Of a stretch of 64,000 nt of DNA, positions 1 to 56,544 are shown piece after piece; positions within the stretch are counted from its first letter, which is position 1, and each line of letters begins with the position of its first letter. The stretch is from Mesostigma viride (Eukaryota; Streptophyta; Mesostigmatophyceae; Mesostigmatales; Mesostigmataceae). Under the pieces are notes generated by a model. That model saw nothing but the letters and a program-made list of their open reading frames with translations, was not told the origin of the DNA and did no database searches. A program made the translations under genes and the position numbers. Location of the stretch: contig RPFO01001355.1 of assembly GCA_009746045.1 (NCBI GenBank), positions 84,065 through 148,064 on the forward strand, given 5' to 3'.

Positions 1-337
1 TCCGGGCTCCCTTGTTGGTTGGTACCAGTTGACCACTATAAACTGCCGTAATGGGCATGCATCCGGGCCAGTGCAAGCATGGTTATTAAACTGGGTTGTG
101 GGAAGTGCAATGTTTGCACCATATATCAAGTATGATGACAGTGTTTATGCAGCAATGTGGTGTGTTTAGAGACCAAATAATGTCGTAGCCTTTTTGGTCC
201 TGCATGAGCGCAAAGTTCCGAACACTATTTTCCCGAGGTTAGCCACTCCTCGGCATCCTAAATTGAGACCACGCATGCGCAGGATGACACAGAGTGCACT
301 ACATTTGGTGGGAGGATATTGACGTGTGCACGTCCAG

Positions 338-1063
338 CACGCTTGGATGGATCTAGTATTGTATATTGATGACAATCCTATAGTATTTGCCCGCCGTCAT
401 GATGCCTGCAGGTTCTTCTACCGCGCAAGGGATTGTCCGGGGGGGACCGTACCGCGGGATGCCGATCGTGTCAGTGAGGTCTTCTGGACGAAGCATGAGC
501 AGGAGATCTCTTTACTGAACTACGGGGGTCACATTGACGTGGTTGGCGTCCGTAAGTGGAGGAAATTTGCCGAGGCTGACCGAGAGGGCGGGCGAGTGTT
601 CTTCATGCGCAGGTCGTACAACCTGTCCCCGGACAAGCCTCGGTACAAGAGGCTGAGATTCTCTAGATGGGAAGCCGAATTCCGCTGTTACCGCCCTTCT
701 AAGTCTGGTCTACCCATCCTATATTTGGTAGTGGCGTTGTGGGATGACTCATTTGAGGAGTATCTCCATCGGCATGGGACGCTGGAAGCGCATTTGTTCA
801 CTGTTCTGAACATCGAGCGCGCCGACAACAAGTCAAGAGACATGATCTTCCCCATCACCGTGAGAGATACACATGTGCCACGAGAGGCAGTCCTTGAGTG
901 TCTTGTGGAGGACATGGATGCGATGGCAGAGGGCGTGCCCATGCTTGTGAAGTTTCCCAAAACGCCAATGGAGCGGTGGGAAATCCGTGTCGCGAACCTG
1001 AACGTGATGGATTCGGCCGCCCGCAACGGCGCGATGGGGCACAAGGGTTGCACCGGCGACAAA
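338..1063 (+). CDS. Transposase-like gene, first visible exon
   Basis: This open exon begins after a CAG acceptor at 335-337 and ends before the donor GTGAGTG at 1064, in phase 0. No convincing ATG precedes LVLYIDD, so an upstream exon is expected before the window or within 1-337. The encoded part includes a W-D-x-FEEYL segment and a D-x-AARNGAMGHKGC stretch that leads into the zinc-binding-type CPFC of the next exon. Positions 1-337 hold nothing else that I recognise. Confidence 0.6.
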
Positions 1064-1221
1064 GTGAGTGATGTTGTCACGTAGCTTGGTTCGGGGTGCT
1101 GCCCATGTGACCTTGATTATTGGGAAGCTGTGTTGGTTTGTTATCACCGTAACCATCAGGCCTTCTTTTATTTCTGCGTACCTTGGTGTGCGGCGCATTG
1201 TGGGTGTGTGCGCCACTGCAG

Positions 1222-2409
1222 GGATGCCCCTTTTGCAACGTTCACCACGACGACTGGGCGGATGCGACGGTGGACGTGGCGGAGTACATGCGCAGTGAGA
1301 AGCAAACGGCGGAAATATTGGAGGAGATGGAGGGCATGGCGACGGCCACGGCACGGAAAGAGAAGGCGAAGGAGACCGGGGTGATGTATCAGCCGCTGTG
1401 GCCTTGGCGGGATCTTCGATTCTTTGACCGCTACCGGCAGTATCCGATGGATATCTTTCACAATCTGACGTTGGGTCTATGTAAGCAGGTGGCTCGCTAC
1501 CTCGAGGAGGATGGAATTCCCACTCGCCAGCACCCGGAGTTGGATGCTTGGGTAAGCGCACACCCCACGCGCGTCGGGAGCCGGCTGCCGCAGGGGAAAG
1601 CTTTTACCTTGTATCCACATTACAAGGGAATGGAGCTGCTGACCCTGCTGTTCCAAATGCCTTTTGCACTTCCCATGCTGCTGCTGAGGAGGCGGAATGA
1701 GGGAGATGATAAGGAGAAAAGGAAGGCCCGGCGGATCAGCAAGATGGTGATGCACCTCGCCAAGTGGGCGCAGATGATGCTTGGTCCCGTTACGTCTCCA
1801 ATCTACAACTTGGCTGCTGACAACGTCTACGCCACTTTTCAAGAGTGTTTCGGCACCTTGTGGCCGCGTGGCAGCCTTGCAGGAAAGGGTCCTGGGGCAA
1901 TGGCTGAGGCAGCGGATGGCGACGAAAAGAAGAAAAACGCGGAGAAGAAGAAGAAGAACGCGGAGAAGAAGAAGAAGAGGATGGCACGCCAAGACAATGC
2001 CGCCAGCCATAACGTCCACATACCGCGCCATGCTTTGGCACAGACTGACGATGTGGGTCGTATCTGGTCCTTGGGCCCGCATGAATTTGAGGGGTACCAC
2101 TTATTCCTGAAATCTCTCATGGAGTCGATGGCCAAATGCCACAGCAAGGAGCCGGGGCGTTACTTGCTGCAGAAACTACAGGGCTACTTGGCGTGGCAGT
2201 CCATGCTGGTTAAGGAGACATCCCAGCTCGATGAACGCGTGCTGCAAACCTTGCAGGAAAGCAGGATGTTCAACAAGCTGTATCCCAAAGCGTCCGCGAC
2301 TGGTAGTGGCGCGAGTGGCGGTCCTTCTGGGCGGGAGGTGTGGGTGCGGCAAGGGGCGACTTTTCCAACGGTCATACACGAGCGCTGCGCGTTGGGGCGC
2401 ATCGAGCAG
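1222..2409 (+). CDS. Transposase-like gene, middle exon with CPFC and MDIFH motifs
   Basis: The acceptor is TGCAG at 1217-1221 and the donor is CAG/GTGAGG at 2409/2410. The exon starts with GCPFC, completing the cysteine cluster begun upstream. It continues with a W-P-W-R-D-L segment and PMDIFHNLTLGL, which in tnp2/Plavaka proteins corresponds to the catalytic-domain D..H region. A repeated K-K-K-N-A-E tract (about 1925-1980) is a low-complexity insertion. Downstream the protein is leucine- and charge-rich without recognisable motifs. Confidence 0.62.
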
Positions 2410-2561
2410 GTGAGGAAACGCATGGGCGCTGTTGCTATGGCTGCGCTGGCGCTAGGGCTAGGGCATTCCTTGGTGTGCTGGGCCGACCCAGCATTTCCGT
2501 TCATATGCCCAGGCTAACAACGGCACTTGTGTGTTTTGCATGTGGTGCTGTGTGTGTGCAG

Positions 2562-2978
2562 GTCATGGGGGGCATGCCTTGCGGCCGTAACCCTAAGTCA
2601 ACACCTACGTTGGCGGAAATTGGCGCTGACAAGCAGACGGTGGACGAGCTTCTCGCCCCGCTGGGCTGTCCACCCTGGGATGAAGCAACTGGCAGCGTGA
2701 AGGTTTATGCTAGTGCAGTAGTCGGTGCCAGGACCATTACGACTGGGGAGGTCAGGTGCTTCCACACTGATGCATACCCGGAAGGTCAAGTGGCGACGGC
2801 AGACTCATTGGCATACCAGGCGGCGGACAATGTGGACGCTGAATTTTGGTTTGCTGAGGTTGGCACCATCTTCATGCTGACGCCTGCTGAGGGGGCCATG
2901 GGGAGCATGTGGTTTGTCCCGATTTGGTTTGAGTCAGGGAATGCAGAGGACGTTCAGGGCAAGCCCATGTTCAACATG
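2562..2978 (+). CDS. Transposase-like gene, last exon, part before FB1
   Basis: The acceptor is a T/G-rich tract ending TGTGCAG at 2561, phase 0. The exon encodes VMGGMPCGRNPK onwards and is open up to codon ATG at 2976-2978. FB1 begins at the next base. Reading on into FB1 gives PQTPVGLV and then low-complexity sequence, which is FB1 terminal repeat and not gene. Confidence 0.6.
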
Positions 2979-3006
2979 CCCCAAACACCCGTAGGTTTGG
3001 TAAATT
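2979..3006 (+). repeat. FB1 left terminal inverted repeat
   Basis: These 28 bases are perfectly inverted at 21244-21271. Immediately inside, left (3007-3127) and right (21128-21243) diverge before the mirrored satellite starts. Confidence 0.8.
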
Positions 3007-3127
3007 TGCATTTACCAAAACCAAATTTTTTGAGATATGCGTTTTTTGGTCTTCAATGACGCATATGGTTGGAAAAAACACCAAAACAATGTTCTGACAA
3101 AAAAAATTTCATGGCTTGTGTCAGAAA

Positions 3128-4729
3128 ATTGACGTGAAGGTGCTTTTCAAGGCATTTTGTGCCAAATATGACATGTCAATTTTTCCTGACTGCAGTTTTG
3201 CTCATACATAGGCCCACATGTGGTGGTTAAGGTCTATCTAGTGCCCCAAGAGGGATTGCAAAGTTGCACACTTTTTGGATACCTGCAGGGGTCCCAACGG
3301 TGACGTCAAGTAGCATAAAAACCGCGATGTGGCACGATTTTAGCCCATTTAGGCACCCTAGACCATGCAAATGAGCTCAGATTGCAGCCAAACTTGGCAG
3401 CTGCCCTTGCCATGCTAAAAATGGAACATGAGCAAAGTTGCACATTTTTTGGATACCTGCAGGGCACCCTGGGTGACGTCAAATAGCATAAAAACCGCAT
3501 TTTTGCTCGGTTTTAGCCTGTTTAGGCACCCTAGACCATGCAAATGAGCTCAGATTGCAGCCAAACTTGGCAGCTGCCCTTGCAATGCTGGACAACGAAC
3601 ATGTGCAAAGTTGCACATTTTTTGGATGCCTGCAGGGCACCCTGGGTGACGTCAAATAGCATAAAAACCGCATTTTTGCTCGGTTTCAGCCCATTTAGGC
3701 ACCCTAGACCATGCAAATGAGCTCAGATTGCAACCAAACTTGGCAGCTGCTCTTGCCATGCTGCAAAACGAACATGTGCAAAGTTGCACATGTTTTGGAT
3801 ACCTGCAGGGCACCCTGGGTGACGCCAAGTAGCATAAAATTAATTGACGTGAAGGCGCAAATACGACATGTCAATTTTTCCTGGCTGCAGTTTTGCTCTA
3901 AATATGACTCATATGTGGTGGTTAAGGTCTATATAGTACCCAAGAGGGATTGCAAAGTTGCACACTTTTTGGATACCTGCAGGGGTCCCAACGGTGACGT
4001 CAAGTAGCATAAAAACCGCGATGTGGCACGATTTTAGCCTGTTTAGGCACCCTAGACCATGCAAATGAGCTCAGATTGCAGCCAAACTTGGCAGCTGCCC
4101 TTGCCATGCTAAAGAAAGAACATGAGCAAAGTTGCACATTTTTTGGATGCCTGCAGGGCACCCTGGGTGACGTCAAATAGCATAAAAACCGCATTTTTGC
4201 TCGGTTTTAGCCTGTTTAGGCACCCTAGACCATGCAAATGAGCTCAGATTGCAGCCAAACTTGGCAGCTGCCCTTGCAATGCTGGACAACGAACATGTGC
4301 AAAGTTGCACATTTTTTGGATGCCTGCAGGGCACCCTGGGTGACGTCAAATAGCATAAAAACCGCATTTTTGCTCGGTTTCAGCCCATTTAGGCACCCTA
4401 GACCATGCAAATGAGCTCAGATTGCAACCAAACTTGGCAGCTGCTCTTGCCATGCTGCAAAACGAACATGTGCAAAGTTGCACATGTTTTGGATACCTGC
4501 AGGGCACCCTGGGTGACGCCAAGTAGCATAAAATTAATTGACGTGAAGGCGCAAATACGACATGTCAATTTTTCCTGGCTGCAGTTTTGCTCTAAATATG
4601 ACTCATATGTGGTGGTTAAGGTCTATATAGTACCCCAAGAGGGATTGCAAAGTTGCACATTTTTTGGATACCTGCAGGGGTCCCAACGGTGACGTCAAGT
4701 AGCATAAAAACCGCGATGTGGCACGATTA
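3128..4729 (+). repeat. 173-bp satellite, FB1 left arm, outer block
   Basis: Units repeat every 173 bp. Every fourth unit is a different variant containing TTAATTGACGTGAAGG and TATGTGGTGGTTAAGG, giving a higher-order period of about 694 bp (compare 3306 with 4000). Standard units contain TGACGTCA, ATGCAAATGAGCTCAG, GGCAGCTGCC and CTGCAGG. Because 173 is not a multiple of three, the frequent 60-64-codon open frames cannot run on and are not considered genes. Confidence 0.9.
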
Positions 4730-6629
4730 ATTAATTAATTAATTAATAGACACGTGACTGCGTCACGTGAGCATAAGTCCTCAGTGGGAGGGGAACATGG
4801 GATGGAATGGATGGTATAAGCTATCTAGGTCCTAGTTACAGGGGTGTGGGCACCGCGGCCCGAATCGCTATGAATGCCATACTTGGTCACACGCGGAGCC
4901 CCCACAGGCTTGGGGGTGGTCTCCTTCATCACTACTTGCCATCTATCCTTGCGCACCATCTGCCTCCATATTACAGACAAACCAGGAGGCTGCCCGGGGG
5001 TGAGCCCGTCACGTCTAGTGTAGCACATGTCCATGCCGAGTCTATCACGAAAAGTCCACGGGTGGCGGCCCTGCCGCGCGCGGCCGGGGGCACGCCAGGT
5101 GAGGACATATCGCCCAGGCTGGGCGGGCTTGGTGCCAGCTAGTCTATCTGATGTATCTACCTGATCTGTGCGGGCCAGGTGCCCGGCTAGGCCCAGGCGC
5201 CTGTGCCTAATAATGTGGGAAACATAGGGCAAATCAGCGTACAAATCCTCATTACTAACGTGCAAACCAAAGGGGATGTTAAGGGCCTTGCGCAGCATCT
5301 TGGTGACGGCGCCGTCGAGTCGTTGCTCCAGCTCCTGCATCAGTGTCCACGTCTCGGCGCCGTAGGTCAGGATCGTCAGAATGACGACCTTGAAGAGGTC
5401 ACGCTTGACGATCCGGGGTAGGGCGGGGTTGCTCCACCAGCGGCGGTGGTCATGGAGGTGCGCCCACGCCATGCCGATCCGTGTCGTCATGTCGTCCTCG
5501 CAGTCAGGAAGCCAACTGCCGAGCAGCTTGAAGCGGCCTGAAGTAGGGTAGTTGACCTCGGCATCGTCTAAGAGGCGGAGTGTGGGTGGGGGCCCTGCCA
5601 TGCCGAGGGCCAGGGCCTCCGTTTTGGGGCTGATTTCTAGACCAACCGCCCGAGCCTCGAGCGCCAGGCAGTCCAGCCAAAGTTGGGCAGACTCCGGCTT
5701 CTCGATGAGCGTGATGTCGTCGGCATAAATGAGGTCAGCTAGTAAATTCTGCTTGTTAGTCGGCCCCCCTTCCCCAAGCTCGTTCGTGATCGCTAGGCCA
5801 GGGGCACGGCCTGCAATGCTAGCAAAGCGAGCACGTGCCTGGCGCATAACATAATCCACTACAATAATAAACAGGTACGGCGACAGGACGCAACCCTGCC
5901 AGACGCCGGTCTGCAGTGGGCAGGGCGGGGTTATGCCGTGCTGAGTGCGCACCGAAGTGGTGGACCCCTCATACAGCGTGCGGATGACGGTAATCAGGGG
6001 AGTGGGGACGCGAGCGCGAGCAAGTACAGCCCATAGAGCGTCCCAGAGGACAGAATCAAAAGCCTTGATGAAGTCGACGAAGATCAGGATGGCGGGAAAC
6101 TCACCAGGTTGCAGGAGAGCGATTTCCTCGAAGAGGCGACGCGCGACGAAGATGGCCATGACGGTGTTGCGCCCAGGACGGAAGCCCATTTGACTTTCCC
6201 CAAGGTGACAGTCGAGAGCAGAACGAAGGCGGTTGAGGATCATGCGCATGAACAACTTAAGTGCGGCGCTCTGGATGCAGACTCCTCTGTAGTTGGCGGG
6301 GTCGTCAGGGGAACCTTTGTTTTTGTACAGCATAATACGGTAGCTGTGCTGCCACTCAGGAATCCGCGGCGCGTCGGCAAGCAGGATCCGGTTGCAGACG
6401 TCAAGCAGGAACCCCGTGAGCGCCGTCAGCTTAATCACCGGGGCTGGGAGCTGGTCAGGTCCAACGGCAGCATAGAAACGAGCCACGAGCCACGAGGTAG
6501 CCATGGCTGACGGCGGAGCTCATAACTTTCACGTTTGAGCACCGAATTTAGCCGTGAATATCACAATCGACGCGTCTTTCTACGACGCACATGCTGATAT
6601 AATTTTCCGACGCTATTACGCAATATACG

Positions 6630-8014
6630 ATGAGCAAACGCCCATCGACGCAACGCAGCCTGACGGCTGCGCTCGGCAATGAAAATACGTCTGCAGCTCC
6701 GGCTGCAGCTTCGCCATCAGGGCCGGAAGGCGGTGGTGACCCTAGTCGCGCACTGGTTGTCGCCCAGCACCCTCCCGGGCTTCCTGCCTCGCCCTCAGCC
6801 TCGCCCGAGCCAAAACGCAGCCGCCCAACCGAACCAAGCTGGTCTGAGCGCGACTTTGACGTTGACGGGTTATTTTCCACCTTCGACGGTGCCAGACCCG
6901 GCTTTTTCGACATGCCACCCATCAAGATACTGGAGCTCGTGTTTTATGGGTCATACGCCTCCATTCTCGACCTGTGCCAGCGCCTTCACAGCCATTACCG
7001 CCTCCGCCCTGGACCTGACGGCCGGTTTACTCACCGACCTGAGAACCTGGCCCGCTGGTCTCGCCCCCGTCTTCAGCTCGCCGCCCTCTTTTCCATCCTT
7101 GACCGCTCTGTCACGGACCTCTGGACCCCCTCCCCCTTGACCGAATCCACCTTCCTCCTCCACCTCCAAGAAACCATCTCACAGCACGTGACGCCCCTAG
7201 CTGCAGATGTGGCAGCTGTGGGTCGCACGCTGGCTGCTGAGCTCCCCACCATCCCCACCGCCACCGCCACCCTCCTCGCCTCCACCCCCCCCCCTCCGCC
7301 TCCACCGACTCCATCACCGCCCAGCTCCGCGACATTGACCAACGTCTTAAGGATAATGCCATCGCTATCGAGGTCCTGCAGAACACCGCGGGCCTCACCG
7401 CCCAGGCGGTGAAGGACATTGCCGCCAAGCCAACCTCTGCTGGCCTGGCCGGCGATGCTCCTCCCATCACGACCTGGGCGGACATGCTTAAGCAGCACAC
7501 CACCTCCACCACCTCCGCCGTCGCAGCCCAGCTCCAGCGGCAGACGCTTGACCTCCGCGAGGAGGCCGAGCTTGCCAAGCGCAGCCTTAACGTCATTGTC
7601 AAGAACCTCGACATGGAGGAAGGTGAGAATTCCGAGAAGCTTGCACGTGCGTTTGAGAGAGAAATTCTTAGTCGCATGGGCCTTACTGGTGAGATCGACC
7701 TGGTCGCCCACCGCCTTCCCCGCGCGCGGGGTAAGGCAGGGCCGCCCCCGCTCCTTCTCACCTTTAAGACCCCGGCGGACAAGATTTCTTTTCTCCGACG
7801 CCGCAAGCGGCTCGAGAAGACTCTCTTCACCCTTGACGACGACTTGACCCTGGCGCAGCAACAACGGCGACGGGAGCTATGGCCCACCTACCTCCAGCTC
7901 CGGAAGACCAAGGCGGGGCAGCCGGTGTACTGGAAGGGGGCGGCCATCTACGTCGGCCACAAGCCCTGGCAGGCGACCCCCGCGGCCCCAACGACTCCAG
8001 ACGCCCCAGCTTAG
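6630..8014 (+). pseudogene. LINE ORF1 (RNA-binding type) with a frameshift in a C10 tract, copy 1
   Basis: ATG at 6630 opens a serine/proline/alanine-rich N-terminus. Past the C10 run at about 7275-7284 the homologous frame is a different one, and it runs to the stop at 8014. The intact relative at 26461-27337 (minus) shows that the two parts are one protein. The C-terminal half (VIVKNLDMEEGEN..., AHRLPRARGK, RRRKRLEKTLF) looks like the RRM plus C-terminal domain layout of L1-type ORF1 nucleic-acid chaperones. The shift could be real, a slippage site or an assembly error; the identical C10 run in copy 2 argues for real. Confidence 0.75.
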
Positions 8015-8418
8015 GGGAATACAGCAGTAGTAGTGTAGAATAGATAGACCGTGGCCATGTACATGTACGCCTCCTAGAGGCACTATCCTAGCTAAGCCAC
8101 ACGCTTTATTTAATCATGTACATGTGTGCCTATGATGTGCCACACTCCAGATGATGCCTAGCTTTATTTAGCTATGTTGTGCCCATGCAGGGAGTAACTC
8201 TCTGCTGAGACGCCATGCCCTAGCCTTTTTGTATAGCTCTGCTGATCTTCCCCCCCATGACAGGCTCCCCCTTCGCTGGGCATAGCTTGAAGATCATGGG
8301 GATGCAAGTGCCCTGGTGCACCTAGAGCAAGGGTCCTTTACATCCCCACCCTTGCAGGAAGTAGCTTAGGATGTATGATAGGCCATATGCCCCCTCTCAA
8401 GGGCTATGTGCTACATAT

Positions 8419-8432
8419 ACTCCCAACGGAGT
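8419..8432 (+). promoter_or_regulatory. 3'-terminal stem-loop of the ORF1-only LINE
   Basis: ACTCC-CAAC-GGAGT forms a 5-bp stem with a 4-base loop, followed by TATGTTAC and the (AATTC)n tail. Equivalent hairpins with different but complementary stems end other LINE families in this window, so it is probably the RT recognition element. Confidence 0.6.
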
Positions 8433-8824
8433 TATGTTACAATTCAATTCAATTCAATTCAATAGAAGCGGAGTTGCTTGGCGGCGGTGCTCAGCTCGAG
8501 CTCGGTGAACGGCGGGAGCTCGTTGGGGTGGGCCAGGGGTTCCGTCAGGGCTGGGTACGTGTAGTCCTGCTCAGCGGCGGGCGGCGTGGGCGGCGCAGGG
8601 ACGTCCGCCGGTGCTACTGCCAGGCGTGCGGCCGCCAGAGGGCCAAGCGGCGGAGGCGGCGGGGGGGCGCCGAGCAGCCGGGACTGGGAGGAATACCACT
8701 GGTTGAGCTGCTGCTGCGGTGAGCCAGAGAGCGTCCGCGGCGCCGGCTGCGCGCCGCCGGCGGGCCGTTGGGCGTGACGCAGGCGGGTCCAGGCGTACTT
8801 GCCGTGCTGGTCCTTGAGGTGGGC

Positions 8825-10945
8825 GAAGTACTCGCGTGGCACGATTATAGCCTGTTTAGGCACCCTAGACCATGCAAATGAGCTCAGATTGCAGCCAAAC
8901 TTGGCAGCTGCCCTTGCCATGCTAAAAATGGAACATGAGCAAAGTTGCACATTTTTTGGATGCCTGCAGGGCACCCTGGGTGACGTCAAATAGCATAAAA
9001 ACCGCATTTTTGCTTGGGTTTAGCCTGTTTAGGCACCCTAGACCATGCAAATGAGCTCAGATTGCAGCCAAACTTGGCAGCTGCCCTTGCAATGCTGGAC
9101 AACGAACATGTGCAAAGTTGCACATTTTTTGGATGCCTGCAGGGCACCCTGGGTGACGTCAAATAGCATAAAAACCGCATTTTTGCTCGGTTTCAGCCCA
9201 TTTAGGCACCCTAGACCATGCAAATGAGCTCAGATTGCAACCAAACTTGGCAGCTGCTCTTGCCATGCTGCAAAACGAACATGTGCAAAGTTGCACATGT
9301 TTTGGATACCTGCAGGGCACCCTGGGTGACGCCAAGTAGCATAAAATTAATTGACGTGAAGGCGCAAATATACGACATGTCAATTTTTCCTGGCTGCAGT
9401 TTTGCTCTAAATATGACTCATATGTGGTGGTTAAGGTCTATATAGTACCCCAAGAGGGATTGCAAAGTTGCACATTTTTTGGATACCTGCAGGGGTCCCA
9501 ACGGTGACGTCAAGTAGCATAAAAACCGCGATGTGGCACGATTATAGCCTGTTTAGGCACCCTAGACCATGCAAATGAGCTCAGATTGCAGCCAAACTTG
9601 GCAGCTGCCCTTGCCATGCTAAAAATGGAACATGAGCAAAGTTGCACATTTTTTGGATGCCTGCAGGGCACCCTGGGTGACGTCAAATAGCATAAAAACC
9701 GCATTTTTGCTCGGTTTTAGCCTGTTTAGGCACCCTAGACCATGCAAATGAGCTCAGATTGCAGCCAAACTTGGCAGCTGCCCTTGCCATGCTAAAGAAA
9801 GTACATGAGCAAAGTTGCACATGTTTTGGATGCCTGCAGGGCGCCCTGGGTGACGTCAAATAGCATAAAAACCGCATTTTTGCTCGGTTTTAGCCCATTT
9901 AGGCACCCTAGACCATGCAAATGAGCTCAGATTGCAGCCAAACTTGGCAGCTGCTCTTGCCATGCTGGAACAAGAACATGTGCAAGGTTGCACATGTTTT
10001 GGATACCTGCAGGGCACCCTGGGCGACGCCAAGTAGCATAAAATTAATTGACGCGAAGGCGCAAATACGACATGTCAATTTTTCCTGGCTGCAGTTTTGC
10101 TCTAAATATGACTCATATGTGGTGGTTAAGGTCTATATAGTACCCCAAGAGGGATTGCAAAGTTGCACATTTTTTGGATACCTGCAGGGGTCCCAACAGT
10201 GACGTCAAGTAGCATAAAAACCGCGATGTGGCACGATTTTAGCCTGTTTAGGCACCCTAGACCATGAAAATGAGCTCAGATTGCAGCCAAACTTGGCAGC
10301 TGCCCTTGCCATGCTAAAGACAGAACATGAGCAAAGTTGCACATTTTTTGGATGCCTGCAGGGCACCCTGGGTGACGTCAAATAGCATAAAAACCGCATT
10401 TTTGCTCGGTTTTAGCCTGTTTAGGCACCCTAGACCATGCAAATGAGCTCAGATTGCAGCCAAACTTGGCAGCTGCCCTTGCCATGCTAAAGAAAGTACA
10501 TGTGCAAGGTTGCACATGTTTTGGATACCTGCAGGGCACCCTGGGTGACGCCAAGTAGCATAAAATTAATTGACGCGAAGGCGCAAATACGACATGTCAA
10601 TTTTTCCTGGCTGCAGTTTTGCTCTAAATATGACTCATATGTGGTGGTTAAGGTCCATATAGTACCCCAAGAGGGATTGCAAAGTTGCACATTTTTTGGA
10701 TACCTGCAGGGGTCCCAACGGTGACGTTTAGTAGCATAAAAACCACGATGTCGCACGATTTTAGCCCGCTTAGGCACCCTAGACCATGCAAATGATCTCC
10801 TGAAGATTGCAGCCAAACTTGGCAGCTGCCCTTGGTATGCTGCAAAAAGCACATTTGCAACGTTGCACATTTTTGGATACCTGCAGGGCACCCTGGCTGA
10901 TGCCAAGTAGCATAAGATTATTTGACGTGAAGGCGCGAATACGAC
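8825..10945 (+). repeat. 173-bp satellite, FB1 left arm, inner block
   Basis: The same satellite resumes after the RT LINE insertion, beginning with the LINE's target duplication GTGGCACGATTA. About twelve units follow, including the fourth-unit variant at about 9330-9510, 10030-10200 and 10560-10730. The last units (10735-10945) are more divergent and run into the G-rich microsatellite. Confidence 0.88.
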
Positions 10946-10949
10946 ATTT

Positions 10950-11513
10950 CAAATGGGTGGGTGGGTGGGTGGTACGTGGTTGGCCCGTGGGTAGGTGCAG
11001 GTGGGTAGGTGCAGGTGGGTGGGTGGGTGGGTGGGTGGGTGGGTGGGTGGGCGGGTGCGTGGGTGGGCGGGTGGGTGGGTGGGTGGGCGGGTGGGTGGGT
11101 GGGTGGGTGGGTGGGTGGGTGGGTGGCGGGCGGGCGGGCGGGCGGGCGGGCGGCGGGCGGGCGGGCGGGCGGGCGGGCAGGCGGGCGGGCGGGCGGGCGG
11201 GCGGGCGGCGGGCGGGCGGGCGGCGGGCGGGCGGGCGGGCGGGCGGGCGGGCGGGCGGGCGGCGGGCGGGCGGGCGGGCGGCGGGCGGCGGGCGGGCGGC
11301 GGGCGGGCGGGCGGGCGGGCGGCGGGCGGGCGGGCGGCGGGCGGGCGGGCGGGCGGGCGGGCGGGCGGGCGGGCGGGCGGGCGGGCGGCGGGCGGGCGGG
11401 CGGGCGGCGGGCGGGCGGCGGGCGGGCGGACGGGCGGGCGGGTGGGCGGGTGGGTGGGTGGGTGGGTGGGTGGGTGGGTGGGTGGGTGGGTGGGTGGGTG
11501 GGTGGGTGGGTGG
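10950..11513 (+). repeat. (GGGT)n/(GGGC)n microsatellite, strongly G4-prone
   Basis: GGGT repeats grade into a long core of GGGC with GGC interruptions and back to GGGT. All 564 bases are G-tracts of three or more separated by one or two bases on the plus strand. The frames read as WVGG or AGGR repeats and are artefacts. Confidence 0.95.
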
Positions 11514-12905
11514 TGCCGTGGGGAGGCCTGCCTCTGTTAGTACTTAGTCTACGCATTACCCAATCGAGCATATGTGCTCGCATGAGTGAGTCTCACACAG
11601 CTGGATGGCCGATACAGTTGTGGACAGGGATTGGTGTGCCTCACACAACGATAAATCTATAGATAGGCCCTAGTAAGATGTTGCAATGTACTATCACCTA
11701 AAAATGCTTCCCCACATCAATTAACATGTTCATCATTGCAAATAAAGCGAATTTCTTCCTGCCACTGTGGTAAGCAACAGACTGTGGTAACGGCCACTCG
11801 GCCAGCCCAATGCTTAACCAAAAGTACGCCAAGAAAGTGCAAGGCTAAGTTTGATTTCCTCCTCAGGGTCCACGCCTGGTCATGCTGCATGCGCACTTAA
11901 GCCCATATTTTTTAACAGCTTCAGCCTCGAAAACACCCGCCCTTCTTACCTTTTGATTGCCTCGATCGCGTGTCACAATAGGACAACTGGTCATCACCGC
12001 CATCGGGGTCAAGGTTCGACCACTTCCGGTCCAGTCTGCAATCCCATTGCCCGAAACTTCATTTCACCAGGAATAGGTTCCGCGACTGCACATTTCCAAT
12101 GGATGGTGCCGAGAATGCCAACATAGCCGTTCTCGTGAGCATCACCAGCAGCTTGCAGTATTCAGCTGCTCAAGTTCGATTCATCAAGGGCCTGCACGAG
12201 TTGCAAAATTGATCAGCAGCCAGTCCTCGTGCTCGCACGGGAAAAAAAGAATTTCCCCTTGAGAAAATGCCAAAACATTCATTATTATTATAACAGCAGA
12301 TCTGTAAATATACTCGAACTCTCGGTTGGTCAGCGCGCTACCTTTCACCGTACTTCCGCGGTGTGGTATTAGCCAAGCCAGCAACCGGACTTTCTCCCGT
12401 CATGCAGTGTCTCTAGATGTTTAATAGCAACATTCCAGGACGCAAGAGAACCCATTACCCCAGGACCTCCGAAGTATGTCATTCTGCCAGCTGCCTATAA
12501 ATAAAACCTCTTCGAAACGACTGAGCAACGAAAACTAAACCGTTGACCAATGACCAATTCGGCATTACTCATTGATGGCAAATAAAATAGACATGGTTTG
12601 AGCCGGAATGGGTAGTCCTCTGCCGAATTCGCATGTTGCCGTCTATACGACTACACAGATTCATAGCATTGCGACGAACAATCCTTCGACGTTGCTTGGC
12701 AGTTGGCTGCTTGTGAAATGGCGGCTTTTGGGCAGGGGCCACTGCGACCACGTGCATGTCCTGTCCAGTTTACTGTGTCCTCGTGTCGCATCACGAGTCT
12801 GTCAATTATTTGTTTGTACAGTCTGTCATTATTAGGTATCGTACAATGCTGGCTATATTTTGTCTCGACTCACCAGGCCGAGGCCTGGCCTCGTCCTCGT
12901 CCGAC
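11514..12905. other. FB1 central region, no gene recognised
   Basis: Moderate-complexity DNA without a convincing coding frame, splice-supported exon or repeat. Short open frames (for example 11851-12126) have no recognisable composition or motif. Confidence 0.5.
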
Positions 12906-13164
12906 CTGTCAATTATGTCAATTATGTCAATTATGTCAATTATTTGTTTGCGTAAACTTTTGCTAGACTTTCAATATTAAAGTTTTATTTTCCAAGGAAA
13001 ATCACTAAAATCTGCACTTTCTAAGGGCTTTGATACCAAGACCTAGTAATTTTGACTATGTAGTTTTGACCATGTAACTACGTAAGATTCTAATACTTTA
13101 CAAATGCTCCCAAACAAATAATTGACATAATTGACATAATTGACATAATTGACATAATTGACAG
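12906..13164. mobile_element. Small foldback/MITE-like element with 9-bp-repeat arms
   Basis: The left arm (12906-12950) is CTG followed by TCAATTATG repeated and ends TTTGTTTG. The right arm (13111-13164) is its reverse complement with one more 9-bp unit. About 160 bp of AT-rich sequence separates them. No clear target duplication was found. A partial match (CTGTCAATTATTTGTTTG) lies just upstream at about 12804-12822. Confidence 0.65.
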
Positions 13165-13741
13165 GCTGGCCAACCAGGCGGTGCGTGCCAGCGTGCACGG
13201 GCACTGCGTATGCAGAAGGTGCCGGGGCTGGTGTGAATTATGCAGCCTGCAATACCATCCCAGCACTCGGGCAGCAATTTTCTCGCATAGCCGTCGTAAG
13301 TTAAAGGTGCTCTATAAGCGACACGCGAGGCTGAGCGAGAATGCTAGACATTCGATTAATATTGATGGCGGTTGCCTTGCTGACAGAAGGCGTACGATGC
13401 GCGCGATCGGTCGAATTCTCCGAATGGCCGCAGTCACCGAAACCTTGGGTGATAGCGGTCTTGCCGGCCGCTGTCGTCGCAGTATTTCTGTTGTGATCAT
13501 AATACTTAATTAGGCCCCACCGTCTAGGTAATCTAGTCGCTCTACACGTAAGCCAGCCTTTATTTCAATGCACAAGGCAACACATTTCCATCACCATTCA
13601 TCTTCATCATCCTGAACGACTCGAACACGCGGACAAGATAACGGCAGGCTCGAGCTACCATGGTCCGGATTCTCCCGATTTCTGGCCTGCGCTGGTTGTC
13701 TCCTTGATAATACTTAATATTGCTTTTGGTGGGATTTTGCG
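13165..13741. other. FB1 central region, non-coding
   Basis: No supported gene. It contains the dispersed 19-mer GCTGGTTGTCTCCTTGATA at 13691-13709, also present at 54783-54801 and 62300-62318. Confidence 0.5.
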
Positions 13742-14535
13742 ATGCACGTGTTTTGGATGGGCCACATGTTGGCGCAGGTTATTGACTTGGATGGGCCAAC
13801 CCCAGATTCCATCGTGGTTGCGCCATATCACGCCAGCTCGTGGACCGGGCAGTTCAATAAGGTGCACCTGGGGGCAGGGTCGGCCAGTGGGCAAAGCAAC
13901 CAGGGGTTAGTTGTTCCATATAACGACATTGTTTTGCAACACTGGACCGTTGGAAATGGGGCGGTAGTCCATACGCCAAAGCTGACGGGGGCAAGGAAGC
14001 TCAACCAAGGGACGCTAGATGCCTTGAAGCTTCATCCTGACATTGACTTTGAGGGGTACAAGACAGTGCAAGCCTCAGAACGTACGACCCAGGTGGCATG
14101 TGAATCTTACTTCCGTGAGAGAGGGAGTGCTGCATTGCTATAGGCATGCGGACATGCGCACTCTTTTTAGCGGGCAAGCCAAGAAGGCAAAAGAGGTTCC
14201 ATGGGTGGGTTACAAAGGTGGGCCATGCTTTCAAACTTGTATGGAGTGATGGGCAGTATGAGGAGTATAGCAAGCTAGAGGACGTGCTGAAATTTGTGTG
14301 TGGGTGCCCTTACGGTGTAAATGCTTTTGGCCGTGAGCAAGTCTTGCAGCAGTACCAAGTTGACAATGGTGCTGGCAGTTCTACGGGAGCTCCTGCTGTG
14401 CCTCCGGTGTGTAATGCCACCACAGTCGACATCCACCACGATGTCCACTCAAGTGACGATGAATCGGATATGGAAAACATTGATGACATTAGTGTAGACA
14501 GTGATGATGAGGCGGATGAGGCGGAGCGCGATTGA
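13742..14535 (+). pseudogene. Hypothetical protein gene inside FB1, two apparent frameshifts
   Basis: ATG at 13742 opens a frame (MGHMLAQVIDLDG, VVAPYHASSWTGQF) to about 14110. The sense then continues in another frame (YRHADMRTLFSGQAKKAKEVPWVGY) to about 14205. It then shifts to a third frame (VTKVGHAFKLVWSDGQYEEYSKLEDV) ending in a serine/aspartate/glutamate-rich acidic tail with the stop at 14533-14535. The WSDGQYEEYS stretch faintly resembles a Tudor/Agenet-type barrel, but I do not assign a function. It is the only gene-like sequence in FB1's core, so it is the best candidate for FB1's own protein. It could be a relic, or the shifts may be single-base assembly errors. Confidence 0.45.
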
Positions 14536-14656
14536 TCATAATAGGCTGGTGGCGCAGCATGCGCACGCCTTGGTAATGGTGTCGTCATGATTCCCTGCCT
14601 ATCCATGTTTTTAATGTGCCTATACCTCATGCACACACGTTTTTGATTTATTGATT

Positions 14657-14683
14657 TCATGTCATGTCATGTCATGTCATGTC
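14657..14683 (+). repeat. (CATGT)n short tandem repeat
   Basis: Five CATGT units follow the hypothetical gene. The pentanucleotide form is like the LINE tails in this window, but no LINE 3' end precedes it. Confidence 0.7.
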
Positions 14684-14816
14684 AATATATCAATTTATGG
14701 TGGGCACGGGGCCATGTGTCAATTACGCAAAGATAACTAATATGTGAAATCCATTGATTGGCCAGTACTGAGCATGCATGGACTTGTGTTCTTTTTGCAA
14801 TATGGAAAGTTAGGGT

Positions 14817-17800
14817 GCAATCTGAGCTCATTTGCATGGTCTAGGGTGCCTAAACGGGCTAAAACCGAGCAAAAATGCGGTTTTTATGCTATTTGACGTC
14901 ACCCAGGGTGCCCTGCAGGCATCCAAAAAATGTGCAACTTTGCACATGTTCTATTTTCATCATGGCAAGGGCAGCTGCCAAGTTTGGCTGCAATCTGAGC
15001 TCATTTGCATGGTCTAGGGTGCCTAAATGGGCTAAAACCGAGCAAAACCGCGGTTTTTATGCTACTTGACGTCACCCAGGGTGCCCTGCAGGTATCCAAA
15101 ACATGTGCAACTTTGCACACGTGCTTTTTGCAGCATGTCAAGAGCAGCTGCCAAGTTTGGCTGCAATCTGAGCTCATTTGCATGGTCTAGGGTGCCTAAA
15201 TGGGCTAAAACCGAGCAAAAATGCGGTTTTTATGCTACTTGGCGTCACCCAGGGTGCCCTGCAGGCATCCAAAAAATGTGCAACTTCGCACATGTTCGTT
15301 TTGCAGCATGGCAAGGGCAGCTGCCAAGTTTGGCTGCAATCTGAGCCCATTTGCATGGTCTAGGGTGCCTAAACAGGCTAAAACCGAGCAAAAATGCGGT
15401 TTTTATGCTATTTGACGTCACCCAGGGTGCCCTGCAGGCATCCAAAAAATGTGCAACTTTGCAATCCCTCTTGGGGTACTATATAGACCTTAACCACCAC
15501 ATATGAGTCATATTTAGAGCAAAACTGCAGCCAGGAAAAATTGACATGTCGTATTTGCGCCTTCACGTCAATTAATTTCATGCTACTTGGCGTCACCCAG
15601 GGTGCCCTGCAGGTATCCAAAACATGTGCAACTTTGCACATGTTCGTTTTGCAGCATGGCAAGAGCAGCTGCCAAGTTTGGTTGCAATCTGAGCTCATTT
15701 GCATGGTCTAGGGTGCCTAAATGGGCTAAAACCGAGCAAAAATGCGGTTTTTATGCTATTTGACGTCACCCAGGGTGCCCTGCAGGTATCCAAAAAATGT
15801 GAAACTTTGCTCATGTTCCATTTTTAGCATGGCAAGGGCAGCTGCCAAGTTTGGCTGCAATCTGAGCTCATTTGCATGGTCTACCTAGGGTGCCTAAACA
15901 GGCTAAAATTGTGCCACATCGCGGTTTTTATGCTACTTAACGTCACCGTTGGGACCCCTGCAGGTATCCAAAAAATGTGCAACTTTGCAATCCCTCTTGG
16001 GGTACTATATGGACCTTAACCACCACAATGAGTCATATTTAGAGCAAAACTGCAGCCAGGAAAAATTGACATGTCGTGTTTGCGCCTTCACGTCAATTAA
16101 TTTCATGCTACTTGGCGTCACCCAGGGTGCCCTGCAGGTATCCAAAACATGTGCAACTTTGCACATGTTCGTTTTGCAGCATGGCAAGAGCAGCTGCCAA
16201 GTTTGGTTGCAATCTGAGCTCATTTGCATGGTCTAGGGTGCCTAAATGGGCTAAAACTGAGCAAAAATGCGGTTTGTATGCTATTTGACGTCACCCAGGG
16301 TGCCCTGCAGGTATCCAAAAAATGTGCAACTTTGCTCATGTTCTTTCGTTAGCATGGCAAGGGCAGCTGCCAAGTTTGGCTGCAATCTGAGCTCATTTGC
16401 ATGGTCTAGGGTGCCTAAATGGGCTAAAACCGAGCAAAAACGCGGTTTTTATGCTATTTGACGTCACCCAGGGTGCCCTGCAGGTATCCAAAAAATGTGC
16501 AACTTTGCTCATGTTCTGTCTTTAGCATGGCAAGGGCAGCTGCCAAGTTTGGCTGCAATCTGAGCTCATTTGCATGGTCTAGGGTGCCTAAACAGGCTAA
16601 AATCGTGCCACATCGCGGTTTTTATGCTACTTGACGTCACTGTTGGGACCCCTGCAGGTATCCAAAAAATGTGCAACTTTGCAATCCCTCTTGGGGTACT
16701 ATATAGACCTTAACCACCACATATGAGTCATATTTAGAGCAAAGCTGCAGCCAGGAAAAATTGACATGTCGTATTTGCGCCTTCACGTCAATTAATTTTA
16801 TGCTACTTGGCGTCACCCAGGGTGCCCTGCAGGTATCCAAAACATGTGCAACCTTGCACATGTTCGTTTTGCAGCATGGCAAGAGCAGCTGCCAAGTTTG
16901 GTTGCAATCTGAGCTCATTTGCATGGTCTAGGGTGCCTAAATGGGCTGAAACCGAGCAAAAATGCGGTTTTTATGCTATTTGACGTCACCCAGGGTGCCC
17001 TGCAGGTATCCAAAAAATGTGCAACTTTGCTCATGTTCTTTCGTTAGCATGGCAAGGGCAGCTGCCAAGTTTGGCTGCAATCTGAGCTCATTTGCATGGT
17101 CTAGGGTGCCTAAATGGGCTAAAACCGAGCAAAAACGCGGTTTTTATGCTATTTGACGTCACCCAGGGTGCCCTGCAGGTATCCAAAAAATGTGCAACTT
17201 TGCTCATGTTCTTTCGTTAGCATGGCAAGGGCAGCTGCCAAGTTTGGCTGCAATCTGAGCTCATTTGCATGGTCTAGGGTGCCTAAACAGGCTAAAATCG
17301 TGCCACATCGCGGTTTTTATGCTACTTGACGTCACTGTTGGGACCCCTGCAGGTATCCAAAAAATGTGCAACTTTGCAATCCCTCTTGGGGTACTATATA
17401 GACCTTAACCACCACATATGAGTCATATTTAGAGCAAAGCTGCAGCCAGGAAAAATTGACATGTCGTATTTGCGCCTTCACGTCAATTAATTTTATGCTA
17501 CTTGGCGTCACCCAGGGTGCCCTGCAGGTATCCAAAACATGTGCAACCTTGCACATGTTCGTTTTGCAGCATGGCAAGAGCAGCTGCCAAGTTTGGTTGC
17601 AATCTGAGCTCATTTGCATGGTCTAGGGTGCCTAAATGGGCTGAAACCGAGCAAAAATGCGGTTTTTATGCTATTTGACGTCACCCAGGGTGCCCTGCAG
17701 GTATCCAAAAAATGTGCAACTTTGCTCATGTTCTTTCGTTAGCATGGCAAGGGCAGCTGCCAAGTTTGGCTGCAATCTGAGCTCATTTGCATGGTCTAGG

Positions 17801-19514
17801 GTGCCTAAATGGGCTAAAACCGAGCAAAAACGCGGTTTTTATGCTATTTGACGTCACCCAGGGTGCCCTGCAGGTATCCAAAAAATGTGCAACTTTGCAC
17901 ATGTTCCATTTTTAGCATGGCAAGGGCAGCTGCCAAGTTTGGCTGCAATCTGAGCTCATTTGCATGGTCTACCTAGGGTGCCTAAACAGGCTAAAATTGT
18001 GCCACATCGCGGTTTTTATGCTACTTAACGTCACCGTTGGGACCCCTGCAGGTATCCAAAAAATGTGCAACTTTGCAATCCCTCTTGGGGTACTATATGG
18101 ACCTTAACCACCACAAATGAGTCATATTTAGAGCAAAACTGCAGCCAGGAAAAATTGACATGTCGTGTTTGCGCCTTCACGTCAATTAATTTCATGCTAC
18201 TTGGCGTCACCCAGGGTGCCCTGCAGGTATCCAAAACATGTGCAACTTTGCACATGTTCGTTTTGCAGCATGGCAAGAGCAGCTGCCAAGTTTGGTTGCA
18301 ATCTGAGCTCATTTGCATGGTCTAGGGTGCCTAAATGGGCTAAAACTGAGCAAAAATGCGGTTTGTATGCTATTTGACGTCACCCAGGGTGCCCTGCAGG
18401 TATCCAAAAAATGTGCAACTTTGCTCATGTTCTTTCGTTAGCATGGCAAGGGCAGCTGCCAAGTTTGGCTGCAATCTGAGCTCATTTGCATGGTCTAGGG
18501 TGCCTAAATGGGCTAAAACCGAGCAAAAACGCGGTTTTTATGCTATTTGACGTCACCCAGGGTGCCCTGCAGGTATCCAAAAAATGTGCAACTTTGCTCA
18601 TGTTCTGTCTTTAGCATGGCAAGGGCAGCTGCCAAGTTTGGCTGCAATCTGAGCTCATTTGCATGGTCTAGGGTGCCTAAACAGGCTAAAATCGTGCCAC
18701 ATCGCGGTTTTTATGCTACTTGACGTCACTGTTGGGACCCCTGCAGGTATCCAAAAAATGTGCAACTTTGCAATCCCTCTTGGGGTACTATATAGACCTT
18801 AACCACCACATATGAGTCATATTTAGAGCAAAGCTGCAGCCAGGAAAAATTGACATGTCGTATTTGCGCCTTCACGTCAATTAATTTTATGCTACTTGGC
18901 GTCACCCAGGGTGCCCTGCAGGTATCCAAAACATGTGCAACCTTGCACATGTTCGTTTTGCAGCATGGCAAGAGCAGCTGCCAAGTTTGGTTGCAATCTG
19001 AGCTCATTTGCATGGTCTAGGGTGCCTAAATGGGCTGAAACCGAGCAAAAATGCGGTTTTTATGCTATTTGACGTCACCCAGGGTGCCCTGCAGGTATCC
19101 AAAAAATGTGCAACTTTGCTCATGTTCTTTCGTTAGCATGGCAAGGGCAGCTGCCAAGTTTGGCTGCAATCTGAGCTCATTTGCATGGTCTAGGGTGCCT
19201 AAATGGGCTAAAACCGAGCAAAAACGCGGTTTTTATGCTATTTGACGTCACCCAGGGTGCCCTGCAGGTATCCAAAAAATGTGCAACTTTGCTCATGTTC
19301 TTTCGTTAGCATGGCAAGGGCAGCTGCCAAGTTTGGCTGCAATCTGAGCTCATTTGCATGGTCTAGGGTGCCTAAACAGGCTAAAATCGTGCCACATCGC
19401 GGTTTTTATGCTACTTGACGTCACTGTTGGGACCCCTGCAGGTATCCAAAAAATGTGCAACTTTGCAATCCCTCTTGGGGTACTATATAGACCTTAACCA
19501 CCACATATGAGTCA
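14817..19514 (-). repeat. 173-bp satellite, FB1 right arm, inner block
   Basis: This is the inverted orientation of the left-arm satellite. A higher-order period of about 695 bp is clear from the fourth-unit variant near 15940, 16640, 17330, 18030, 18725 and 19420. Neighbouring higher-order units differ by only a few bases, which indicates recent amplification or homogenisation. Confidence 0.9.
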
Positions 19515-20340
19515 GCCCAGTTTGAGTACCGCATGTACATGTGTGCCACGAGCCACGAGCCACGAGATAGCCATGGCTGACGGCGGAGCTCATAACTTTC
19601 ACGTTTGAGCACCGAATTTAGCCGTGAATATCACAATCGACGCGTCTTTTTACGACGCACATGCTGATATAATTTTCCGCAGCTCTTACGCAATATACGA
19701 TGAGCAAACGCCTCTCGACGCAACGCAGCCTGGCGGCTGCGCTCAGCAATGAAAATACGTCTGCAGCTCCGGTTGCAGCTTCGCCCACCGGCCCAGAAGG
19801 CAACGGCGCCACTAGCCAAGCTCTAGTGGTCGTCCAGCCCCCTGCTGCGCCCCCCTCGCCCGCAGCGTCGCCTGAACCCAAGCGCAGTCGCCCTGCCGAG
19901 CCGAGTTGGACAGAGCTCGACTTTGTCGCCGAAGCCAGCAAGCCCGGCTTCCTTGACACGCTTACCAAGCTAAGCCACGCGCTTTCCTTAATCATGTACA
20001 TGTGTGCCTATGATGAGCCACACCCCAGATGATGCCTAGCTTTATTTAGTTATGTTGTGCCCATGCAGGGAGTAACTCTCTGCTGAGACGCCATGCCCTA
20101 GCTTCTTTGCATAGCTATGCTGATCTTCCCCCCCATGACAGGCTCCCCCTTCGCTGGGCATAGCTTGAAGATCATGGGGATGCACGTGCCCTGGTGCACC
20201 TAGAGCAAGGGTCCTTTACATCCCCACCCTTGCAGGAAGTAGCTTAGGATGTATGATAGGCCATATGCCCCCCTCTCAAGGGCTGTGTGCTACATATACT
20301 CCCAACGGAGTTATGTTACAATTCAATTCAATTCAATTCA
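19515..20340 (+). mobile_element. ORF1-only LINE copy 3, internally deleted and 5' chimeric
   Basis: Inserted in satellite with ATGAGTCA on both sides. It keeps the 5' block and the first 90 or so codons of ORF1 (ATG at 19700), then jumps at about 19970 directly to the 3' untranslated region, terminal hairpin and (AATTC)n tail. Its first 25 bases (GCCCAGTTTGAG onward) match the end of LINE ORF2 (about 33951-33975) instead of the usual 5' start. Coding differences show that it is an older or different subfamily from copies 1 and 2. Confidence 0.75.
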
Positions 20341-21127
20341 ATGAGTCATATTTAGAGCAAAGCTGCAGCCAGGAAAAATTGACATGTCGTATTTGCGCCT
20401 TCACGTCAATTAATTTTATGCTACTTGGCGTCACCCAGGGTGCCCTGCAGGTATCCAAAACATGTGCAACCTTGCACATGTTCGTTTTGCAGCATGGCAA
20501 GAGCAGCTGCCAAGTTTGGTTGCAATCTGAGCTCATTTGCATGGTCTAGGGTGCCTAAATGGGCTGAAACCGAGCAAAAATGCGGTTTTTATGCTATTTG
20601 ACGTCACCCAGGGTGCCCTGCAGGTATCCAAAAAATGTGAAACTTTGCTCATGTTCCATTTTTAGCATGGCAAGGGCAGCTGCCAAGTTTGGCTGCAATC
20701 TGAGCTCATTTGCATGGTCTAGGGTGCCTAAATGGGCTAAAACCGAGCAAAAACGCGGTTTTTATGCTATTTGACGTCACCCAGGGTGCCCTGCAGGTAT
20801 CCAAAAAATGTGCAACTTTGCACATGTTCCATTTTTAGCATGGCAAGGGCAGCTGCCAAGTTTGGCTGCAATCTGAGCTCATTTGCATGGTCTAGGGTGC
20901 CTAAACAGGCTAAAATCGTGCCACATCGCGGTTTTTATGCTACTTGACGTCACTGTTGGGACCCCTGCAGGTATCCAAAAAATGTGCAACTTTGCAATCC
21001 CTCTTGGGGCACTAGATAGACCTTAACCACCACATATGGGCCTATGTATGAGCAAAACTGCAGTCAGGAAAAATTGACATGTCATATTTGGCACAAAATG
21101 CCCTGAAAAGCACCTTCACGTCAATTT
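20341..21127 (-). repeat. 173-bp satellite, FB1 right arm, outer block
   Basis: The array continues after the deleted LINE copy, with ATGAGTCA duplicated on both sides. The outermost unit (about 21000-21127) carries the same terminal-specific changes (GGCACTAGATAGACC, GGCCTATGTATGAGC) as its mirror at 3128-3240. Confidence 0.88.
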
Positions 21128-21243
21128 CGTCGGGGGGGGGGTAAGGTTTTTTGGTCCAAATACATTTCTCGAGGCATCCTGCACCAAGTATGAGTCAGAC
21201 AAGCAAAAATATTCAGTTTTTAAAATTTTACCAAAAATGTGGT

Positions 21244-21271
21244 AATTTACCAAACCTACGGGTGTTTGGGG
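21244..21271 (-). repeat. FB1 right terminal inverted repeat
   Basis: Perfect inverse of 2979-3006. The adjacent 21128-21243 stretch is unique to the right end and contains a run of nine or more G. Confidence 0.8.
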
Positions 21272-21274
21272 ATG

Positions 21275-21605
21275 GACGAAACTTGGACGGACTGTCCTGT
21301 GTTCACCAAAGACATGACACTGTCCTCGCAGTGGAAAGCCAACGGGAAGTATCCACAGCCTCTGTCCTACCTGGGGTCACAGGTCCGACTGTTGCATCAG
21401 TGCTGGCGGCGTGGTTGCGAAACCAAATGCAAAGTAAAGCATGTGGCGGCACGTGTAGGTGACACCACATCAGAACCAGTCCTACAGGTGAAGCACGACC
21501 ACCTTGGGAACAACCACTATGTGCTGGATGCGTTTGATTGGGCGTGCCCAGCGTACTATCGTGACCTGCACATGGGGGGCGTGACGGACCAGCATGGGAA
21601 ACGAT
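21275..21605 (+). CDS. Transposase-like gene, last exon resumed after FB1
   Basis: After the second ATG copy (21272-21274) the frame continues as DETWTDCPVFTKDM and stays open to CGA T at 21602-21605. Joining 2978 to 21275 keeps the frame with no extra base. The LINE target duplication TGGGAAACGAT (21595-21605) recurs at 27512-27522. Joining across it makes TGA directly after the codons for HGKR, which is the natural stop. Confidence 0.6.
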
Positions 21606-21670
21606 TGAATTGAATTGAATTGAATTGTAACATAACTCCGTTGGGAGTATATGTAGCACATAGCCCTTGA

Positions 21671-23644: not shown

Positions 23645-24027
23645 ATAGCCCTTGAGAGGGGGCGTATGGCCTATCATACATCCTAAGCTACTTCCTGCAA
23701 GGGTGGGGATGTAAAGGACCCTTGCTCTAGGTGCACCAGGGCACTGGCAGCCCCATGATCTTCAAGCTATGCCCAGCGAAGGGGGAGCCTGTCATGGGGG
23801 GGAAGATCAGCATAGCTATACAAAGAAGCTAGGGCATGGCGTCTCAGCAGAGAGTTATTCCCTGCATAGGCACAACAGAACTAAATAAAGCTAGGCATCA
23901 TCTGGGGTGTGGCTCATAATAGGCACACATGTACATGATTAAGTAAAGCGCGTGGCTTAGCTGAGATAGTGCCTCTAGGAGGCGTACATGTACATGGCCA
24001 CGGTCTATCTATTCTACACTACTACTG

Positions 24028-27337: not shown

Positions 27338-27574
27338 ATAGTGCGTTATAGCTTTGGAAAATTATATCAGCATGTGCGTCTAAGAAAGACGAAGCGATTG
27401 TGATATTCACAGCTGAATTCGGGGCTCAAACGTGAAAGTTATGAGCTCCGACAGCCATGGCTACCTCGTGGCTCGTAGGCGTTGTCCCACCTGGGGTCTG
27501 GTTGTCCTACCTGGGAAACGATGACCTGCATAGGATGGCCGTGTCAGATAATCACGGCATTTTGTAACGGTGGG

Positions 27575-28520: not shown

Positions 28521-28872
28521 ATCCTATTGTGATGTTTTTCTGTATTCATATACGTGGTAAGGGAACGACCCATTCGGAAATTATCTGAGACTTTGCAATT
28601 GAAGTCGGACAAGTTCTATGCTCCATGTACACTGCATGATACACCTGGATATAAAATATTACATAACTTGGTTAAGGTTTCTTTCCATCACTCCGAGGGC
28701 TCCTGATCTGTGGCTCGCCAATGGGAGCACGAGTTTAAGTAACTGATGTGACCTTTTGTGGATGCCCTACCTGACGCGAAGGCATGATCATCTTCCCATG
28801 CAGTGAGCAGTTTAATTGAACCTGGGGCCAGTCTTTTTAAGGCAACGAGACAAGTGGGGCGTCATATTAATA

Positions 28873-30557: not shown

Positions 30558-30631
30558 GTAGACAACCTTCCTCGTCGGCTCGCGGCTAACAGGCTTCGGG
30601 GACAGCCTCTAAACAGTCCCGTTCCACCCCC

Positions 30632-56505: not shown

Positions 56506-56544
56506 AACATCGTCTCTCTGCAAAGAGACCCTTGCCAAACATGC

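Follow-up and report, generated by a model that had tools for sequence, protein, structure and literature searches.

A probable foldback DNA transposon with arms of 173-bp satellite in the genome of Mesostigma viride

The stretch of DNA analyzed here (the window; 64,000 nucleotides of Mesostigma viride contig RPFO01001355.1, positions 84,065 to 148,064, assembly GCA_009746045.1) contains an element, FB1, at positions 2979-21271. FB1 interrupts a gene of another transposon, and from its two ends arrays of a 173-bp satellite run in opposite directions toward a central core (Table 1). We consider it very probable that FB1 is a DNA transposon of the foldback type, most likely a non-autonomous one, and that the satellite arms moved with it. 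It is one of many copies in a family characterized by a 28-bp end, 3-bp duplications, a core of ~4 kb, and opposed 173-bp arms of varying copy number. A first-pass annotation, made from the letters of the window, had described an unusual 18.3-kb foldback transposon that carries and disperses a satellite. Most of that description held, and its size and novelty required revision.

The 28-bp ends of FB1 are perfect inverted copies of each other (chance expectation in 100 shuffles, mean 0.00), and an ATG lies directly outside each. They start with CCCCAAAC. Next to them, ~115-119 bp per side align poorly between the sides; the end-specific units that follow are 98.6% identical over 140 bp. The satellite is forward on the left and reverse on the right, in keeping with the annotated arrangement of opposed arrays and matching end units. 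Among the 25 longest of 604 inverted arm pairs listed, complementarity was 94-98%. Foldback elements are recognized by long inverted repeats that are able to fold and that consist, in full or in part, of tandem repeats; FB1 and its copies have such repeats, and arm length differs between copies. While the foldback plan stands, the size of 18.3 kb includes ~4.9 kb of later retroelement insertions, and the element proper is ~13.4 kb long. The duplications bounding both insertions consist of satellite sequence. The element nested within the left insertion is one of two LINE-like elements (long interspersed nuclear elements) that have only open reading frame 1 (ORF1). The two (6480-8458 and 21669-23646) are 99.9% identical over 1979 bp and have AATTC-type tails, which suggests that they were recently active.

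Table 1. Position and strand of FB1, its parts, its host gene, and the later insertions, in window coordinates.
Feature	Position	Strand	Remark
Host of insertion, left part: Plavaka-like transposon gene frames, introns inferred	323..2978	+	open frames, Pfam
Target-site duplication ATG, left copy	2976..2978	no strand	outside left end
Terminal inverted repeat, 28 bp, left	2979..3006	+	exact match to right end
Left subterminal stretch	3007..3125	+	in alignment, not clearly common with right end
End-specific unit, left	3126..3265	+	shortened copies occur as the internal E segments
Satellite arm, left, outer part	3257..4728	+ (forward)	173-bp repeats
Later LINE insertion in left arm	4729..8835	-	RVT_1, E=3e-25; 11-bp duplication GTGGCACGATT at 4718-4728 and 8836-8846
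Second, ORF1-only retroelement nested in the LINE at 4729-8835	about 6480-8458		
Satellite arm, left, inner part	8836..10950	+ (forward)	173-bp repeats
Core common to the family	10951..14806	+	begins with GGGC/TGGG array at 10954-11513
Two overlapping open frames (13718-14143, 14119-14535)	13718..14535	+	no Pfam family above cut-off
Satellite arm, right, inner part	14807..19514	- (reverse)	173-bp repeats
Later LINE-like insertion without reverse transcriptase, right arm	about 19515..20340	+	8-bp duplication ATGAGTCA at 19507-19514 and 20341-20348
Satellite arm, right, outer part	20341..20992	- (reverse)	173-bp repeats
End-specific unit, right	20988..21127	-	matches left unit
Right subterminal stretch	21128..21243	-	in alignment, not clearly common with left end
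Terminal inverted repeat, 28 bp, right	21244..21271	-	exact match to left end
Target-site duplication ATG, right copy	21272..21274	no strand	outside right end
Host of insertion, right part, to next retroelement	21275..21603	+	junction alignment

Within the arms, 173-bp arrays occupy 3257-4533, 8848-10565, 14807-19467, and 20414-20996. A conserved motif occurs at 21 positions in the left arm and 31 in the right, with a spacing of 173-178 bp except across the two insertions. The four-unit order proposed at first pass was recovered in both arms: identity between units is highest at lag 4 (left, 0.909 in 17 comparisons; right, 0.928 in 27) and only 0.724-0.781 at lags 1-3. In a higher-order satellite, monomers resemble those a fixed multiple away more closely than their neighbors, and here this is seen at lag 4 and lag 8. 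A segment that we call E, usually present in each fourth unit, is 75.7-79.3% identical to the end-specific unit with 20-24 gap positions; in the single alignment inspected, most of them belong to one 20-base gap. Since E aligns to the end unit and usually recurs in every fourth unit, the repeat block consists of a shortened end unit and usually three monomers. The presence of a shortened end unit in the blocks suggests that the satellite grew out of the transposon end.

The host of FB1 was assessed through its reading frame and through related copies. When FB1 and one ATG are left out, a single open frame passes through the junction, as had been claimed. The first-pass annotation had also placed the target in an exon with a transposase frame. 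The frame is indeed open and looks like one of Plavaka type, although its Pfam match (E=1.8e-4, 21.3 bits) is under the curated cut-off of 26.3, and the exon thus belongs to another transposon. The host flank matches at least 40 places in the genome, FB1 included (40 of 48 candidates scored). Seven of the 39 other matches were examined, and all seven are empty sites, in which the joined flanks align straight through with a single ATG. Five of these alignments are identical at 1627 of 1630 positions, one at 1625 of 1633, and one at 891 of 893 over its aligned part, junction included. Given the repeated flank, the Plavaka match, and the empty sites, FB1 inserted into a single copy of a Plavaka-like transposon that is itself repeated in the genome. 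Units of 96/189 bp form a tandem array at 27571-28522 of the window, and the same repeat lies shortly after the gene in one host copy with an empty site (L030, one of the handles that we use for loci and contigs). The host transposon seems to carry a tandem array of its own.

Other copies were sought in the assembly from which the window comes (440 Mb, 2243 contigs). The first 222 bases of FB1 gave at least 48 matches, at least 26 of them with 95% identity or higher along almost the full query, FB1 included; as 40 of 233 candidates received a score, these counts are lower bounds. When up to 2 mismatches were allowed, the 28-bp end was present at 50 places (22 forward, 28 reverse), compared with 0 for a reversed-pattern control. 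By position, 38 of the 50 form 19 convergent pairs, and the elements that they delimit measure 8.4 to 48.4 kb. Exact 3-bp duplications bound 16 of the 19 pairs, and they have no consensus (ATG, CTC, TTG, GTA, GAC, TAG, AAG, TTG, CAC, TAT, CTG, CTC, GTG, CTG, ATT, and GGG). If triplets are taken as equally likely and pairs as independent, the chance of at least 16 in 19 is ~1e-26. The first-pass annotation had looked to other loci with these ends, 3-bp duplications, and empty sites as the test of its reading, and such loci are present in numbers. The longest of the 19 pairs, G000:C1857:743555-791926, has exact ends 48.4 kb apart and a CTC duplication. Two sets of copies may be alleles, as C655 and C1531 have 12 identical flanking bases and C446 and C1945 have 30; C1531 and C1945 are not part of the 19 pairs. 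Among 20 further ends examined, 17 are exact over 28 bp, another carries a single mismatch, and the other two are diverged. In 17 of these 20, forward satellite appears farther along the stretch examined; the exceptions are L038, L051, and L053. In L038, L051, and C1945 the region near the end passes into other sequence, which we read as nested insertions. Viral contigs gave 0 matches to the first 26 end bases or to the monomer motif, in a set from which records close to the window's genome may be excluded.

Eight copies were read from end to end (FB1, two in C335, and C446, C655, C1421, C1579, and C1793). In all eight, every forward monomer lies ahead of every reverse one, with the ~4-kb core between them. 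Together with the 19 convergent pairs, this bears out the earlier proposal that the satellite is carried and dispersed by a transposon. With the terminal unit counted, an arm has 2 to 8 E units across copies, and each is followed by 1 to 4 monomers, as counted with a motif that overlooks some altered monomers. C1793, a copy of 8.4 kb, contains 6 forward monomers and 10 reverse ones, and the left arm of C1646, read in part, may extend to ~9.5 kb. The seven other end-to-end copies match the FB1 core at 81-99.7% (pieces longer than 150 bases), and over its unique 1.6-kb part identity is 98.2-99.6%. C446 holds an additional separate 95-bp core piece at 95.8% identity. The middles of the longer copies C1646 and C1757 are the same core, as far as they were read.

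The first-pass annotation had singled out a core gene at 13742-14535. This gene recurs in other copies, and neither a family for it nor a protein relative was found, the search for relatives covering 13742-14140 and 10 candidates. The region holds two overlapping frames of ~140 amino acids each; the first recurs in all seven cores compared, and the FB1 form of the second in five of them. No transposase family was matched in the three core frames scanned with Pfam (two from FB1, one from C1579). Within this coverage, the core was rejected as a known transposase. Outside the GGGC array, the longest frame listed across seven cores is 176 amino acids. Because no transposase family was matched in the frames scanned, no frame exceeds this length, and the longer copies C1646 and C1757 have the same core, FB1 is most likely non-autonomous and probably moves in trans.

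Diverged relatives provide further context. At G000:C1324:4274232-4285656 (L019, L020) there is a near-palindromic relative, ~85% identical, with CCCCTTGCACCC ends and a related satellite. It contains a second end inside (2 mismatches to the 28 bp), and no duplication around the whole element was seen in the flanks inspected. Its core holds a gene fragment, present as inverted copies, that matches Pfam DUF7869 (E=2.5e-9), which we take, from a general impression, to be a transposase-derived remnant. No relatives of this fragment were found among 65 candidates, and no mention of the name DUF7869 was found in the literature searched. Ends of the CCCCTTGCACCC kind also occur at C2 and C1468, which were rejected as autonomous partners, no transposase being recognized by eye among the open frames in the 7.8 kb read of each. 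These data bear on a different account of the family, in which the copies are the degenerate remains of an autonomous element and 13718-14535 is its transposase frame. The recurrence of both frames would fit, as would the DUF7869 fragment if it is transposase-derived. However, the shortness of the frames and their lack of a transposase family count against it, and the DUF7869 fragment sits in a core without a match to that of FB1 in the part compared. We consider a degenerate autonomous origin unlikely.

The family was compared with established superfamilies by its ends and duplications. PIF/Harbinger elements make a 3-bp duplication of the TWA type, and membership was rejected because the 16 duplications are of many kinds. 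EnSpm/CACTA elements have ends that start with CAC and make 2-4-bp duplications without consensus. The 3-bp duplications fit the latter, and membership was rejected on end sequence, as FB1 ends start with CCCCAAAC. The FB elements of Drosophila melanogaster have inverted arms of tandem repeats with shorter units and longer duplications than FB1, and they resemble it in having arms built of such repeats. Miniature inverted-repeat transposable elements (MITEs) and Helentrons that contain tandem repeats have a single internal array, whereas FB1 has two opposed arms. Tandem-repeat-bearing MITEs and Helentrons carry and disperse satellite-like arrays, according to a review (PMC12628747). The closest comparison is Tetris of Drosophila virilis, which its description (PMC4079207) presents as an apparently non-autonomous foldback element. 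Its terminal inverted repeats contain ~220-bp tandem repeats that have a stretch in common with the terminal domain, and the arrays vary in length and are the apparent source of a satellite (PMC4079207). Tetris is thus like FB1 in its foldback plan, in tandem repeats within the arms that are related to the end, and in its variable arrays. Tetris is a direct precedent for FB1, and the claim that FB1 is unusual was overstated. The two differ in that Tetris makes 8-10-bp duplications, its terminal repeats reach 1,735 bp, and its middle is variable and non-coding (PMC4079207), whereas FB1 has 3-bp duplications, a 28-bp end, kilobase arms, four-unit order, and a conserved ~4-kb core. FB1 is not Tetris itself, as the 16 duplicated pairs have 3 bp rather than 8-10 bp. 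For Galileo, a foldback-like element of Drosophila, tandem repeats inside the terminal repeats are reported as extra transposase-binding sites (as cited in PMC4079207). Galileo is assigned to the P superfamily, whereas for FB1 no transposase family was matched in the core frames scanned. No earlier description of an FB1-type element was found in the literature searched, which was covered in part, through titles and the openings of abstracts.

Inverted ends, duplications, and intact empty sites point to cut-and-paste movement with a 3-bp stagger, in which the transposase of another element would recognize the FB1 ends and move the unit. The arms may have arisen by tandem repetition of a subterminal unit with about three 173-bp monomers, and unequal exchange or replication slippage would since have lengthened and shortened them. 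Every jump would then take a satellite block to a new location. We propose such gain and loss of blocks because block number varies and because nearest relatives lie partly in the same arm, above random expectation (15.8 of 58 internal units, against ~4 expected from pair counts). The repeated E units might act as extra transposase-binding sites, a guess modeled on Galileo.

Several observations weigh against this account. Twelve of the 50 end matches are without a partner, at least three copies are interrupted near an end, and three of the 19 pairs (C1421, C1648, and C2111) have no 3-bp duplication. Only three core frames were scanned, no transposase was found, and mobilization in trans is what we infer. 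The nearest relatives of 37.7 of the 58 internal units lie in other elements, 30.2 of these on the same side. Much of each arm was therefore inherited from a common source, and recent growth within copies accounts for only part of the arms. The end unit could instead derive from an older satellite. In a related alternative, the satellite first existed as ordinary genomic arrays, and the transposon captured it in both arms. A review describes how a mobile element can capture a tandem repeat that already exists (PMC12628747), but the internal blocks hold a shortened copy of FB1's own end unit. Moreover, in the ~85% relative (C1324, with ends also at C1468) related ends enclose a related satellite, which makes the association an old one; capture is accordingly improbable. 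It is quite doubtful that the four-unit satellite is a self-built platform, in which a binding unit expands blockwise, raises mobility, and seeds arrays at each landing site, and that the family is an undescribed superfamily. Long inverted arrays are difficult to assemble, but a palindrome made by assembly error or by segmental inversion without a transposon is extremely improbable and was rejected, given that many unrelated sites have the 28-bp ends together with 3-bp duplications, and given empty sites, paired arms that differ by 2-6% and hold a retroelement each of their own, and independent copies that differ in arm length and nested insertions.

Other elements were seen elsewhere in the window. 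Adjoining LINE frames at 29331-34099 match an endonuclease (Exo_endo_phos, E=5.6e-6) and a reverse transcriptase (RVT_1, E=9.8e-24). On the reverse strand, a 306-amino-acid frame at 34944-35861 matches the PhyH dioxygenase family (E=6.7e-5), and a 302-amino-acid frame at 50076-50981 has at its end the first part of a DDE_Tnp_1_7 match (E=2.2e-5) and is perhaps a fragment of a piggyBac-like transposase. A second nearly complete palindrome lies at 55850-61623, with its center near 58427-58563. Its outermost ~100 bp are inverted sequence; farther in come 120-bp and 30-bp repeats in opposed arrays, and after these the inverted unique arms. There is a possible TA or CTA duplication. The palindrome resembles a further foldback element whose arms consist of satellite.

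Under the reading of FB1 as a foldback transposon moved together with its arms, the family provides a clear case, with empty sites and many insertion sites, of satellite DNA moving inside a DNA transposon. As the number of end-like units per arm ranges from 2 to 8 among copies in one genome, the start and expansion of a higher-order satellite could be traced directly.

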